NCBI RefSeq assembly: GCF_900103645.1
Contig: NZ_FNHP01000004.1
Location: forward strand, 124,001 to 188,000
DNA from: Oryzisolibacter propanilivorax
GTDB taxonomy: Bacteria > Pseudomonadota > Gammaproteobacteria > Burkholderiales > Burkholderiaceae_C
Length of the DNA: 64,000 nucleotides
Direction: 5' to 3'
Below the pieces are notes generated by a model. That model was not told the origin of the DNA. It did no database searches and saw only the letters and a program-made list of their open reading frames with translations. The translations under genes and the position numbers were made by a program. Below, one piece after another: positions 17,544-44,463 of the stretch (position 1 is the stretch's first letter; the number at the start of each line of letters is the position of its first letter).

Positions 17544-18426
17544 AGGGCAGTGAGGACTTCTTGAGCTTTTTGCTATATTTTAGATAGCTGATTGCCCTTT
17601 ACTTGCTTGGGCTTCAGGCTGTTTTGGTTGGTTTTCCGGCTTTGACTGCGAGGCCGCGACCCGCCCCGGCGGGCAACCTCCTTTTCTTGCTTGCATACAG
17701 GAAAAGGAGGCAAAAGAAGTGCGCGCCCCCGGTGCCCGTAGCCCCTTCGCTGCGCTACAGGGCAGCCTGCGATGCTCGGTACGGGCACAAGGGGGGAAGT
17801 CAGGGAGACGATTCGGGCCGGCGCTGCGCGCGGCCTGGTATGGGCGGGCGACGTTTCCACCCCCTCTTGCTCCCTCGCCCCCTTCAGGGGGAGAGGGCTG
17901 GGGTGAGGGGGCGAGAGTTCGGGCGCGGCGCCTATGCAAGGCTTCCCGCCCTCACCCCAGCCCTCTCCCGCCCTGCGGGAGAGGGAGTGAAGACCCGTCA
18001 GCGCGGCTGGTTCTTCCCTCTTTCTTTCTTCCGCTCCCGTTTCCTCCTCCCACCCCTTCAAGGCCGCGCCTGTCTCGGGGCGCTGGCGGGGTGGCATGGG
18101 CGCAGGTGCGCCCATGCTTCGTCATCTGGCTCGCTGCGGTTGTTTGAACGGAGCTGCGCAGCAGCGCAGTGAGTTCCGCAGCGCACCCCGCCAGTGCCCC
18201 GAGACAGGTTGCCCCCACGCGACAGCGTGGGGGACGCAGCCTGCGGGGGCGCACTTCTTTTGCTCACTTTTCTTGTGCGAGCAAGAAAAGTGAGTCGCCC
18301 GCCGGGGCGAGTCCCGGCCTCGCAGTCAAAGCCAAAAAACCAACCAAAACAGCTGGAAGCCCACGCAAATAAAGGGCAATCAGCTATCAAATCAGGAATA
18401 CAGCAACCGACAAAACTCCAGCCCCA
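17544..18426. repeat. Gene-free block with long imperfect inverted repeat and nested palindromes
   Basis: No credible gene lies here. A left arm (about 17579-17730) and a right arm (about 18245-18395) are imperfect inverted copies of each other. Both contain TAGCTGATTGCCCTTTA, CTGTTTTGGTTGGTTTT, GGCTTTGACTGCGAGGCC and CAAAAGAAGTGCGC. Between them are a palindromic REP-like pair (17870-17987), a second nested inverted pair (18068-18091 with 18186-18209, sharing CCTGTCTCGGGGC) and a hairpin at 18210-18231. The arms could fold as a very long hairpin and separate gspD from the convergent glycosyltransferase gene. There is no transposase and no obvious target duplication. Confidence 0.8.
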
Positions 18427-33795: not shown

Positions 33796-33998
33796 CAATT
33801 TTGATAGCTGCAGGCCCTTTGTTTGTCAGGACTTGCGGCAGATTTGATCGATAAAACGTGCGGCAGGCGGTTTTTGGCTCCCTCTCCCGCGTGCGGGAGA
33901 GGGCGGGGGGTGAGGGCCTCTGCGGAAATTTGTCACCCCTACTGGCGAGGCCACCGTCGCTGGCCCTCACCCCTGCCCTCTCCCAGGGGGAGAGGGAG
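33796..33998. repeat. Dispersed repeat copies between glyQ and glyS
   Basis: Two repeat types lie side by side. At 33796-33856 is a copy of the TAGCTGCAGGCCCTT family ending near GATTTGATCGATAAA. At 33879-33998 is a palindromic REP-like doublet: CTCCCTCTCCC...GGGAGAGGG with GTGAGGG, then an inverted second unit CCCTCACCCCTGCCCTCTCCC. Close relatives occur at 17870-17987, 41364-41478 and (half only) 63286-63325. They fall between two genes of one operon, so they may act on glyS expression or mRNA stability. Confidence 0.85.
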
Positions 33999-38760: not shown

Positions 38761-40161
38761 TCAGATATGCAGCGCCTGCCCCAGCGCGCGCAGCGCTGCC
38801 TCCTGCACCGCCTCGCCCAGCGTCGGATGCGCGTGGATGGTGTGGCCCACGTCCTCCAGCCGCGCGCCCATCTCGATGGACTGGCCGAAGGCGGCGGCGA
38901 GTTCGGACACATTACGGCCCACGGCCTGCCAGCCGACGATCAGGTGGTTGTCCCGACGCGCGACCACGCGCACGAAACCGCCGGTGGCCTCCAGCGTCAT
39001 GGCGCGGCCGTTGGCGGCGAAGGGGAAGGCGGCGTCGATGCACTCCAGCCCGGCGGCGCGCGCCTCGGCCGGGGTCTTGCCGACGACGACCACCTCCGGG
39101 TCGGTGAAGCACACCGCGGGTATGGCCATCGGCTCGAAGCGGCGCGCGTGGCCGGCGATCTGCTCGGCCACGCACTCGCCCTGCGCCATGGCGCGGTGCG
39201 CCAGCATGGGCTCGCCGGTCACGTCGCCGATGGCCCAGACGCCACGCATGGACGTGCGGCAGTGCGCGTCGATCGCCACGTGGCGGCCGGCCATGTCGAG
39301 CTGCAGCGACTCCAAACCGAACCCGCTCGTGCGCGGGCGCCGGCCGACGGCCACCAGCACGCGGTCGGCCGGCAGGGCAAACTCGTCGGCGCGGGCGTTG
39401 CGCACGTGCACGCCCTGGCCCGCGTCCCAGCCCTGCACGCTGCAGCCCAGGTGCAGCACCACGCCGCTTTTCTTCAGCGATTCGAGCACCGGCTGCGTCA
39501 GCTCCTCGTCGTAGCTGGGCAGCACGCGCTGCGCGGCCTCGACCACGGTGACTTCCACGCCCAGCTTGCGGTAGGCGATGCCCAGCTCCAGCCCGATGTA
39601 GCCGGCACCCACCACCACCAGGCGGCGCGGCAGCACGTCGGGCGAGAGCGCGTCGGTCGACGACCAGATGGCGCCGCCGAACGGCATGCTGGGCAGCGCC
39701 ACAGGCTCGGATCCGGTGGCCAGCAGCAGATGCTCGCAGCGCACGCGGCGCACCTCGCCGCCTTCGCCAGCCATGCGCACGCTCACGGTCTTGCCGTCCT
39801 CGATCGTCGCCCAGCCCTGCAGCACCTGCACGCCCGCCTTGCGCAGCAGGCCGCCGACGCCGCCTGTGAGGCGCTGCACGATACCGTCCTTCCAGCGCAC
39901 GGTCTGCGCCAAGTCCAGCGTGGGCTCGCCTGCGCGGACGCCCAGCGCCGAGCCGGCGGCGTTGTGCCGCGCCTGCTCGAACACCTCGGCCGCGTGGATC
40001 AGCGCCTTGGACGGAATGCAGCCGATGGTCAGGCACGTGCCGCCCAGGCGCTCTCCCTCGACCAGCACGGTGGGGATGCCCAGTTGCCCGGCGCGGATGG
40101 CGGCCACGTAGCCGCCCGGGCCGCCGCCGATCACTAGCAGTTTCGTTGAGAGTTCTTTCAT
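38761..40161 (-). CDS. lpdV: Dihydrolipoyl dehydrogenase (E3) of the branched-chain complex
   Basis: 466 residues. It reoxidises dihydrolipoamide on the E2 subunit using FAD and NAD. Motifs: FAD-binding [21 protein letters not shown], redox disulfide [18 protein letters not shown]-binding [13 protein letters not shown], second FAD motif [18 protein letters not shown], and the C-terminal [15 protein letters not shown] with the catalytic His-Glu. It is the last gene of the bkd operon; the 180 bp between bkdB and lpdV hold a dispersed repeat. Confidence 0.95.
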
Positions 40162-40341: not shown

Positions 40342-41871
40342 TCACTCGACGAACAGCAGCGCCGGCGTCTCCAGCAGCGCGCGCACGGCCTGGATGAAGC
40401 GCGCTGCGTCCATGCCATCGACCACGCGGTGGTCGAAGGACGAGGACAGGTTCATGAGCTGGCGCGCAACCACGTGGCCGCCTTGGAACATCGGCCGCTC
40501 CACCATGCGGTTGACGCCGACGATGGCGACCTCCGGGTGGTTGATGACCGGCGTGCTGGCGATGCCGCCCAGCGCCCCCAGGCTGGTCAGCGTGATGGTC
40601 GAGCCCGACAGCTCGTCGCGCGCTGCGCGGCCAGAACGCGCCCCCTCGGCCACGCGGGCTATTGACGCAGCGCACTGCCACAGGTCCAGGCTTTCGGCGT
40701 GGTGCAGCACGGGCACCATCAGGCCGGCGTCGGTCTGCGTCGCCACACCCAGGTGTACCGCCTCGTAGCGCGTGACCACGCCCGCGTCGTCGTCGTAGCG
40801 GGCGTTGATCTGCGGGAAGTCGCGCAAGGCCAGGACCATGGCGCGCGCCAGGAACGGCAGCAGCGTGAGCTTGCCGCGCGTAGCGCCGTGCAGCTGGTTC
40901 AGCCGCTGGCGCAGCGCCTCCAGCTCGGTCACGTCGATCTCTTCGACGTAGGAAAAATGCGGGATGCGGCGCTTGGCCTCCTGCATCTTCTGCGCTATTC
41001 GGCGGCGCAGGCCGATGACGGGGATCGGCTGCTCGCCATGACGCTCCACGTACTGCGAGCGGCCCTGGGCGGCGGGCTGGCCGGCGCTGGCAGCCCAAGC
41101 ATCCAGGTCTTCGTGCGAGATGCGGCCGGCGGGGCCGCTGCCGTGCACGTAGCGCAGGTCGATGCCCCGGTCCTGCGCGGCGCGGCGCACAGCGGGCGAG
41201 GCCAGCGGGCGTTCGCCAGGGGCGCGCGCGGCGGCCTGGGAGCGAGCGGAGGCCGGCTGTCTTGCTATCGTATCCGTAGCTGGATGCCTGTGTGTTGTAT
41301 GGGCCAGGGGCAGATTTGGCTTGAAACCGCCGCCTGCTTCCCCCGTCGGCGCCCCCTGCCTGACTCCCTCTCCTCCTGGGAGAGGGTGGGGGTGAGGGCT
41401 GGCGACGGTTGCTTGGTTGGCCGTACCGTCCATCGCCGGCCGGCCCTCACCCCTGCCCTCTCCCGGAGGGAGAGGGAGTGAAGAGCCGCCGGCCTTGCCG
41501 GCGGGCTGGGCGGGCGCAGCGCCTTCGCCCTGCCCCGCTGGCCCTGGCGCATCTTTTGCTCCATTTTCAGTAGCTGCATGCCCTGGACTGGCGCCGGCTG
41601 GAGCCTGGTTTTCCTTCCAATTGCCAGCGCCCTCGACCTCCAGTCGCACCAGCTCGGCGCCCACGGCCAGCACCTGGCCCACGGCGCCGCCCAAGGTCAG
41701 CACCTTGCCGGGCACGTGCGCCGGGATCTCCACCGTCGCCTTGTCGGTCATCACGTCGGCGATCGGCTGGTCCTCGGCCACCGTGTCGCCCGGCTGCACG
41801 TGCCAGGCGACTAGTTCCACCTCGGCAATGCCCTCGCCGATGTCGGGCATGCGGATCACGTAAATACCCAT
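40342..41871 (-). CDS. bkdB: Branched-chain 2-oxoacid dehydrogenase E2 (lipoamide acyltransferase)
   Basis: 509 residues, starting at an ATG preceded by GGAGG. Lipoyl domain first (~1-78, VIRMPDIGEGIAEVELV, lipoylated Lys in VMTDKATVEIP). Then a long linker (~85-235), a peripheral subunit-binding domain (~237-275, ASPAVRRAAQDRGIDLRYVHGSGPAGRISHEDL) and the acyltransferase domain with the catalytic SSSFDHRVVDGMDAARF. The linker is unusual: it is encoded by two copies of a TAGCTG-type repeat and a palindromic REP doublet, giving SLPLPPGEGRGEG and SPHPHPLPGGEG. The reading frame is intact throughout. Confidence 0.93.
   Translation of the reverse strand: MGIYVIRMPDIGEGIAEVELVAWHVQPGDTVAEDQPIADVMTDKATVEIPAHVPGKVLTLGGAVGQVLAVGAELVRLEVEGAGNWKENQAPAGASPGHAATENGAKDAPGPAGQGEGAAPAQPAGKAGGSSLPLPPGEGRGEGRPAMDGTANQATVASPHPHPLPGGEGVRQGAPTGEAGGGFKPNLPLAHTTHRHPATDTIARQPASARSQAAARAPGERPLASPAVRRAAQDRGIDLRYVHGSGPAGRISHEDLDAWAASAGQPAAQGRSQYVERHGEQPIPVIGLRRRIAQKMQEAKRRIPHFSYVEEIDVTELEALRQRLNQLHGATRGKLTLLPFLARAMVLALRDFPQINARYDDDAGVVTRYEAVHLGVATQTDAGLMVPVLHHAESLDLWQCAASIARVAEGARSGRAARDELSGSTITLTSLGALGGIASTPVINHPEVAIVGVNRMVERPMFQGGHVVARQLMNLSSSFDHRVVDGMDAARFIQAVRALLETPALLFVE
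41261..41621. repeat. Repeat cluster inside the bkdB linker
   Basis: Three elements lie within the coding frame: a TAGCTG-type copy at about 41261-41328 (ending in GATTTGGCTTGAAACC), a palindromic doublet at 41364-41478 (CTCCCTCTCC...GGAGAGGG, GTGAGGG, then the inverted unit), and another TAGCTG-type copy at about 41555-41621 (CAGTAGCTGCATGCCCTGG). All preserve the frame of the E2 gene. The doublet matches the intergenic ones at 33879-33998 and 17870-17987. Confidence 0.85.

Positions 41872-43008: not shown

Positions 43009-44463
<1,455 letters not shown>

Follow-up and report, generated by a model that had tools for sequence, protein, structure and literature searches.

The window, that is, the whole stretch of 64,000 nucleotides analysed here, carries on its minus strand a gene for an E2 acyltransferase, with genes for E1 and E3 nearby. 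In 2-oxoacid dehydrogenase E2 proteins, Ala/Pro-rich swinging-arm linkers lie between the lipoyl and subunit-binding domains. The genes and domains at the locus are as follows.

43009-44301, minus strand: E1 alpha subunit, gene upstream of E2 (TIGR03181, 303.6 bits, below cut-off)
40342-41871, minus strand: E2 acyltransferase (bkdB-type), 509 aa (Pfam order Biotin_lipoyl, E3_binding, 2-oxoacid_dh)
41635-41871, minus strand: lipoyl domain, residues 1-79 (PF00364, 7e-17; block pLDDT at least 85)
41209-41634, minus strand: disordered linker, residues 80-221 (gap between Pfam domains; block pLDDT 38-62, without secondary structure)
41104-41208, minus strand: E3-binding (peripheral subunit-binding) domain (PF02817, 6e-13)
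40351-41034, minus strand: acyltransferase catalytic domain (PF00198, 1e-80)
38761-40161, minus strand: E3, dihydrolipoyl dehydrogenase, gene downstream of E2 (TIGR01350, 473.9 bits, over cut-off)

The three domains and the proximity of E1 and E3 genes fit a bkd-type E2 (Pfam, NCBIfam); as to the substrate, putatively branched-chain, not one of the 11 NCBIfam models that cover E2 reached its cut-off on the window protein. Judging from position and sequence, an E1 beta gene probably lies between E1 alpha and E2. One open frame spans all three domains and the repeats between them, leaving a linker of 142 residues; the other ORFs over the linker (104 aa on the minus strand and 260 aa on the plus strand) had no Pfam match up to an E-value of 1. 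In an AlphaFold2 model built with an alignment of 60 E2 sequences, the domains were folded, mostly at high confidence, and the linker is predicted to be disordered, with block mean pLDDT of 38-55 over residues 81-210.

The linker contains copies of two repeats, here called REP and TAG, and the same REP doublet occurs at two further sites in the window.

41555-41616, plus strand: TAG copy 1, decayed, lipoyl side, encoding about ENQAPAGASPGHAATENGAKD (9.9 bits)
41442-41484, plus strand: REP half 1, antisense in the gene, encoding SSLPLPPGEGRGEGRP (44.9 bits with the non-E2 model; peptide from the frame)
41359-41400, minus strand: REP half 2, encoding SPHPHPLPGGEGV (36.0 bits with the non-E2 model; peptide from the frame)
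41277-41334, plus strand: TAG copy 2, clear, E3-binding side, encoding about GGFKPNLPLAHTTHRHPATDT (21.1 bits)
17870-17987, no strand assigned: same REP doublet, outside any recognised gene (L016); ORFs of at least 180 aa over the doublet are without Pfam domain
33879-33998, no strand assigned: same REP doublet, outside any recognised gene (L018); one half misses the search pattern, and the ORF over the detected half is without Pfam domain

Repeats and doublet spacer together make up 246 of the 426 nt of the linker (about 58%, in profile-model coordinates). The segment shares the place and role of Ala/Pro-rich E2 linkers, but much of its DNA is interspersed repeat instead of Ala/Pro codon runs. 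The two REP halves form an inverted doublet that spans 41359-41484 with its spacer; its arms (41363-41403 and 41439-41479, 41 nt) are 85% complementary, and two 21-mers within it agree exactly with the REP pattern outside 2 free positions. An earlier note on this DNA had described an inverted doublet and two TAGCTG-type copies, all in frame between the lipoyl and E3-binding domains, and the profile scores and the 509-aa open frame bear this out, although the TAG copies are unequal, that at 41277-41334 being clear and that at 41555-41616 decayed. The note had given the linker as 41261-41621, which places the repeats rightly, whereas the linker itself is longer (41209-41634). The two further doublets that it named are present where it put them, and its reading of the segment as a flexible swinging linker agrees with the location of the repeats, where AlphaFold2 predicts disorder.

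Both repeats are abundant in the 3.7-Mb genome of the window (G000; G001-G004 denote congeners and L numbers individual loci). The 21-base REP head had 79 matches at up to 2 mismatches, compared with 5 for the reversed control; the fetched set was these matches minus one hit with two mismatches (C17:528196) and three hits in simple repeats (C4:62898-62930). The fetched copies have the structure CCCTCACCCC-NN-CCCTCTCCC-loop-GGGAGAGGG, with halves that form hairpins, and 22 inverted doublets with a start-to-start spacing of 50-71 nt were counted, the E2 copy included. The TAG element (GATAGCTGC NN GCCCTT N7 AAGGGC with AT-rich flanks) is palindromic and about 60 bp long; with up to 3 mismatches allowed, it matched 309 times in the genome and never in the control. 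The REP-like doublet and TAG are two unrelated high-copy palindromic repeat families.

With no more than 2 mismatches over the 21 bases, the head end of 72 REP halves agrees with CCCTCACCCC (GGGGTGAGGG), and inspection of the tag by eye found at the REP end neither the GTAG nor the CGTC tag of the GTAG/CGTC REP super-families. Matches to Y1_Tnp were found once each in G000 and G004, as three pieces in G002, and not in G001 or G003. No copy of this REP was detected at E 0.1 within about 1.5 kb on either side of Y1_Tnp in four of the five loci (L141-L144), and a RAYT as mobiliser of this REP is unsupported by the scanned flanks. The doublet is accordingly filed as REP-like: it behaves as a REPIN, without RAYT association and without a GTAG/CGTC tag. 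Against Rfam, neither repeat had any match at gathering score within the window. Searched by E-value, 10 loci (6 of them TAG) yielded 15 matches, all to miRNA families, on three REP-doublet loci and below gathering score; these low-threshold matches look like palindrome noise.

The two families also tend to lie together. Of 46 REP units, that of E2 included, 17 had a TAG copy of at least 15 bits no more than 150 bp away; the number expected is 1.5 from the genome-wide pattern count, or 4.1 if the TAG density in the fetched loci is taken. A REP beside a TAG is possibly a polar composite, or TAG a preferred landing site. As judged by eye in loci L001-L030 and L150-L169, the 3′ end of TAG faces the REP in 16 of the 17 adjacent pairs.

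For a survey of other E2 genes, profile models were built from copies outside E2 (72 REP halves and 29 TAG copies) and applied to linkers at thresholds of at least 15 bits for REP and at least 8 bits for TAG. The test set, to which the window's own E2 belonged, comprised 143 unique E2 genes whose linker was complete. Three unparsed E2 loci (L274, L278, and L280) and a short linker (L244) were left out; 12 unique cores without a lipoyl side were excluded from linker counts, among them the REP carriers L272 and L275, which were used for tree, frame, and spacing only. The REP model matched 14 of the 143 linkers and the TAG model 8, and neither matched any of the 143 catalytic cores.

Within the genus, the E2 linkers of G002 and G003 contain the doublet and the downstream TAG copy (27.9 bits in G002; weak in G003, at 6.6 bits). 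That of G004 has neither the doublet nor the downstream TAG and bears a lipoyl-side TAG copy of 34.9 bits, and the E2 gene of G001 is split across two contigs within the linker. In REP-free sisters, Ala/Pro-rich linkers occupy the same place. Beyond the genus, REP linkers were found in two MAGs (L061 and L062), Comamonas badia (L064), and Ramlibacter (L066 and L112), as one REP half of 17.4 bits in G100 (L172), and in one alphaproteobacterial order (L102, L106, L253, L254, L256, L272, and L275).

By sample, REP-bearing full linkers numbered 3 of 4 in the genus, 7 of 73 in the named set, 1 of 26 among newly added members of the family, 0 of 19 in the order, and, beyond L102 and L106, 3 of 21 in the alphaproteobacterial order, for which the search query was a REP-bearing E2. 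The carrier share in the named set is not an unbiased frequency, because the set holds those 80 relatives, out of at least 504, that most resemble the window protein, and two of the six search peptides came from the linker. None of the 24 newly fetched E2 loci from the 399-genome order sample had a REP linker. Two loci of the order sample, L228 and L230, have E2 linkers of 131 and 141 aa with neither REP nor TAG.

On an E2-core tree (FastTree, 155 rows, many weak forks), the REP label required at least 12 changes, gains and losses mixed, and the TAG label 5. The REP carriers were Comamonadaceae-type genomes and members of the one alphaproteobacterial order, and sister pairs differing in REP included L253/L255 (support 96), G000/G004 (94), and L062/L083 (80). 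Linkers L102, L253, and L254 have a common spacer, though the tree places L254 apart; they look orthologous, and their REP linkers are probably one insertion. A single ancestral insertion behind all REP linkers is disfavoured by the tree, by differing spacers, and by host-specific REP variants.

In the other genomes with REP linkers, REP heads, E2 copies included, numbered 76 in G002, 20 in G003, 52 in G100, 144 in G153, 173 in G154, 54 in G155, 31 in G156, 36 in G157, 20 in G158, and 3 in G159; two of the three in G159 are the E2 copy itself, which leaves a single head outside its E2 gene. These family counts leave out the genomes of the REP carriers L253, L254, L256, L272, and L275, and of L088. 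Fifteen other genomes had 0 to 47 REP heads, with none in seven; G008 had 47 (control 5) and an E2 linker without REP, and G123 had 45, compared with 37 in the control. A variant head, CCCCCACCCCAACCCTCCCCC (the CCCCCACCCC variant, at up to 1 mismatch), occurs in the linkers of L061, L062, and L064 and had 21, 35, and 10 matches in their respective genomes (E2 copy included). Elsewhere it was found 19 times in each of two Ramlibacter genomes, twice in G003, three times in G123, and 0 times in G000, G008, and G161.

The repeats in these linkers are read mostly in one frame. A minus half of the REP gives GEGxGEG, ERxGVR, or a reading with a stop, and a plus half gives PHPxPLP, LTPxLS, or PSPxPSP. 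With the core's frame as reference (the lipoyl side of G002 and of L112 is in another), minus halves were read as GEGxGEG in 15 of 16 distinct linkers, L066 being the exception, and plus halves as PHPxPLP in all 15 linkers having one. Fourteen of 15 doublet linkers were in the common Gly/Glu/Pro frame, the combination that makes up 17 of 71 (24%) stop-free readings of other doublets. In 14 of 15 linkers the two halves were spaced by a multiple of 3, which held for 12 of 27 other doublets (21 from G000 and 6 from G158; Fisher p 0.0016). For the frame, the binomial p is 2e-8 if all linkers are independent and about 8e-4 to 3e-4 with 5 to 8 independent gains, and both the frame and the spacing statistics ignore the relatedness of linkers.

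Taken together, the E2 linker very likely arose by in-frame insertions of two high-copy palindromic repeat families into a disordered, length-tolerant segment. The earlier note's view of a mobile repeat domesticated as a protein linker finds support in three respects, namely origin, retention in frame, and the preferred frame; that support does not extend to a benefit for the enzyme. Related genes, from one genome per species, include alleles with the repeats and alleles without them, the doublet being present in G000, G002, and G003 and absent from G004, and other sister pairs differing likewise. It had also named conservation of the linker in distant relatives that lack the repeat family as a point against its view; no such case turned up in the 10 other REP-linker genomes searched, all of which have REP heads, at least 20 in nine of them, although the tenth, G159, has a single one outside its E2 gene. 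In the order of events that we propose, the TAG copy on the lipoyl side would be the oldest insert, and the REP doublet and the second TAG copy would have been added within this genus, the earlier TAG copy possibly guiding later insertion into a permissive segment. Inserts would survive mostly if the frame is kept and the peptide is soluble and Gly/Glu/Pro-rich, while Arg/Leu-rich (basic or hydrophobic) frames would rarely be kept, owing to selection against them. The repeat peptide would then be a passive part of the swinging arm, with the lipoyl domain moving between the active sites of E1, E2, and E3.

The PDH dihydrolipoyl dehydrogenase (Lpd) of two congeners, G002 and G003 (L293 1691-3568 and L294 4927-6837), likewise has REP halves in the linker that joins its lipoyl and E3 domains, read partly in the PSP frame. 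The same linker is Ala/Pro-rich and without REP in G000 and G004 and contains a TAG copy of 18.7 bits in G001. In G002 and G003 the E2p linker also has a weak TAG match (8.6 and 8.5 bits, respectively). In G000, 7 of 46 REP units lie inside ORFs with surrounding domain matches, namely four in a UvrA-like gene and one each in EarP, an HrpA-like gene, and E2. Among the 40 other ORFs scanned over REP units, which were taken without gene calling, 9 have any Pfam domain, two of these, an aminotransferase and a phage portal gene, being unclear cases. The UvrA-like ORF (L156 50-6259, G000:C15:55200-62000) is 2070 aa long, about twice the usual UvrA length, and bears a TAG fragment besides its four in-frame REP units. 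In the middle of the EarP gene (L159 1122-2495, G000:C17), a REP doublet and, behind it, a TAG copy (54.4 bits) stand in frame, which repeats the arrangement seen in the E2 linker.

The same origin may have brought no gain at all: lipoyl linkers would be among the few coding stretches that bear a 40-residue insert harmlessly, and the frame pattern would reflect removal of bad inserts. We consider the chances of this explanation to be evenly balanced. Since the same repeats stand in frame in the UvrA-like, HrpA-like, and EarP genes, tolerance instead of linker function may suffice, and the Ala/Pro-rich linkers at the same place in REP-free sisters fit it as well; alone, however, it leaves unexplained why distant lineages have REPs in this one linker again and again and why a second protein, Lpd, has them in its lipoyl linker. 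A stronger proposal is that selection actively draws on interspersed palindromic repeats as a lasting supply of swinging-arm linkers: in Beta- and Alphaproteobacteria, E2 and lipoyl-E3 proteins would capture them recurrently in the single frame with a soluble Gly/Glu/Pro product, with an earlier TAG in the linker as the landing site of REP doublets and the kept hairpin perhaps also affecting translation; we put it forward tentatively, as a possibility that we rather doubt.

An action of the repeats as DNA or RNA, for example an mRNA hairpin that slows translation and lets the lipoyl domain fold ahead of the rest, with the peptide as a by-product, appears unlikely. As RNA, the doublet has a folding energy of -94.6 kcal/mol (z -6.5), a stability that none of 200 shuffles attained, but such folding is expected of any palindromic repeat. 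Doublet arms differed less than core third codon positions (P < 0.05) in 7 of 11 non-independent species pairs, for example 0/13 versus 38%, whereas the other four pairs were without effect, and young inserts, gene conversion, or detection bias may explain the arm conservation. The doublet is moreover absent from repeat-free sisters, and that one frame is preferred speaks for the peptide.

It is highly improbable that the gene is broken or misread, as a pseudogene or with an untranslated linker. Two of the 15 doublet linkers, those of G002 and Ramlibacter montanisoli (L112), have a frameshift in the linker, which is either sequencing error or slippage. In the other 13 doublet carriers, the lipoyl side is in the core frame in all 11 that have one, L272 and L275 being cut by a contig end there, and the window E2 is a single open frame with three domains near the E1 alpha and E3 genes. 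The frameshifts lie near G/C runs (L034 1400-1960 in G002 and L112 3180-3500 in Ramlibacter montanisoli). Finally, an artefact of composition, conceivable in GC-rich, low-complexity Pro/Ala/Gly linkers, is ruled out by the E2 cores and by 6050 codon-shuffled and 6050 dinucleotide-shuffled sequences from 121 linkers of an earlier parse (some of them shorter), none of these 12100 reaching 15 bits for REP (best 10.9) and one reaching 8 bits for TAG (best 8.2), as well as by the exact 21-mers of the window doublet.

In-frame palindromic insertion, the origin that we favour for the E2 linker, is as such already known from Rickettsia palindromic elements (RPE), RU elements, and intragenic REPs, as far as the sources cited here describe them. 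RPEs are palindromic, multi-copy, and in frame in conserved protein genes, with 19 cases over many genes and one tested product that was translated and active, according to the account in PMC2229807. The present repeats resemble RPEs as in-frame palindromic multi-copy insertions; they are probably a different element, and they differ in occurring outside Rickettsia, in one linker type of several lineages and mostly in one frame, whereas RPEs are described there from Rickettsia hosts and many genes. REPs and dimers of the GTAG/CGTC families likewise lie inside ORFs, including uvrA, and the main text of PMC3733652 regards such inserts as possibly neutral in flexible linkers or loops; the present REP differs from those described there in carrying GGGGTGAGGG and no GTAG or CGTC tag. 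The words 'acyltransferase', 'pyruvate', and 'dehydrogenase' are absent from that main text, the target ORFs being listed in its Additional file 3, outside our scope.

REPINs are described in PMC3116915 as inverted REP pairs with a short spacer, in high copy and mostly extragenic. The present family shares the many copies, the palindromic core, and the inverted doublets with short spacer, but its REP was not found within about 1.5 kb of the scanned Y1_Tnp loci and some of its copies are coding. In enterobacteria, RU elements joined to ORFs are small mobile repeats read within proteins; they are different elements, and the abstract of the report (PMC2759123) is without a recurrent linker target. 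Open-access titles and abstract openings, with supplementary files outside the scope, yielded no report of REPs in E2 or lipoyl linkers, and the repeated capture of REPs by lipoyl-arm linkers with a frame preference looks new.

At this locus, the arm of a metabolic enzyme would be made largely from short repeats that landed in a readable frame, as seems to have happened several times in related enzymes of other bacteria. Sister species with and without repeat linkers, together with several apparently separate same-frame insertions, offer a natural series for enzyme assay. For annotation, repeat-like peptides such as PHPxPLPxGEG and GEGxGEG may be genuine parts of conserved enzymes. Other repeats may have entered E2 linkers elsewhere: some beta-proteobacterial MAGs (L071 and L077) have SSLPPEGADPAWGGP in common in their E2 linkers, possibly another repeat family, and the peptide ERALPAKGP is common to the E2 linkers of two Pseudomonas-type loci (L096 and L107), possibly a further repeat-derived linker.
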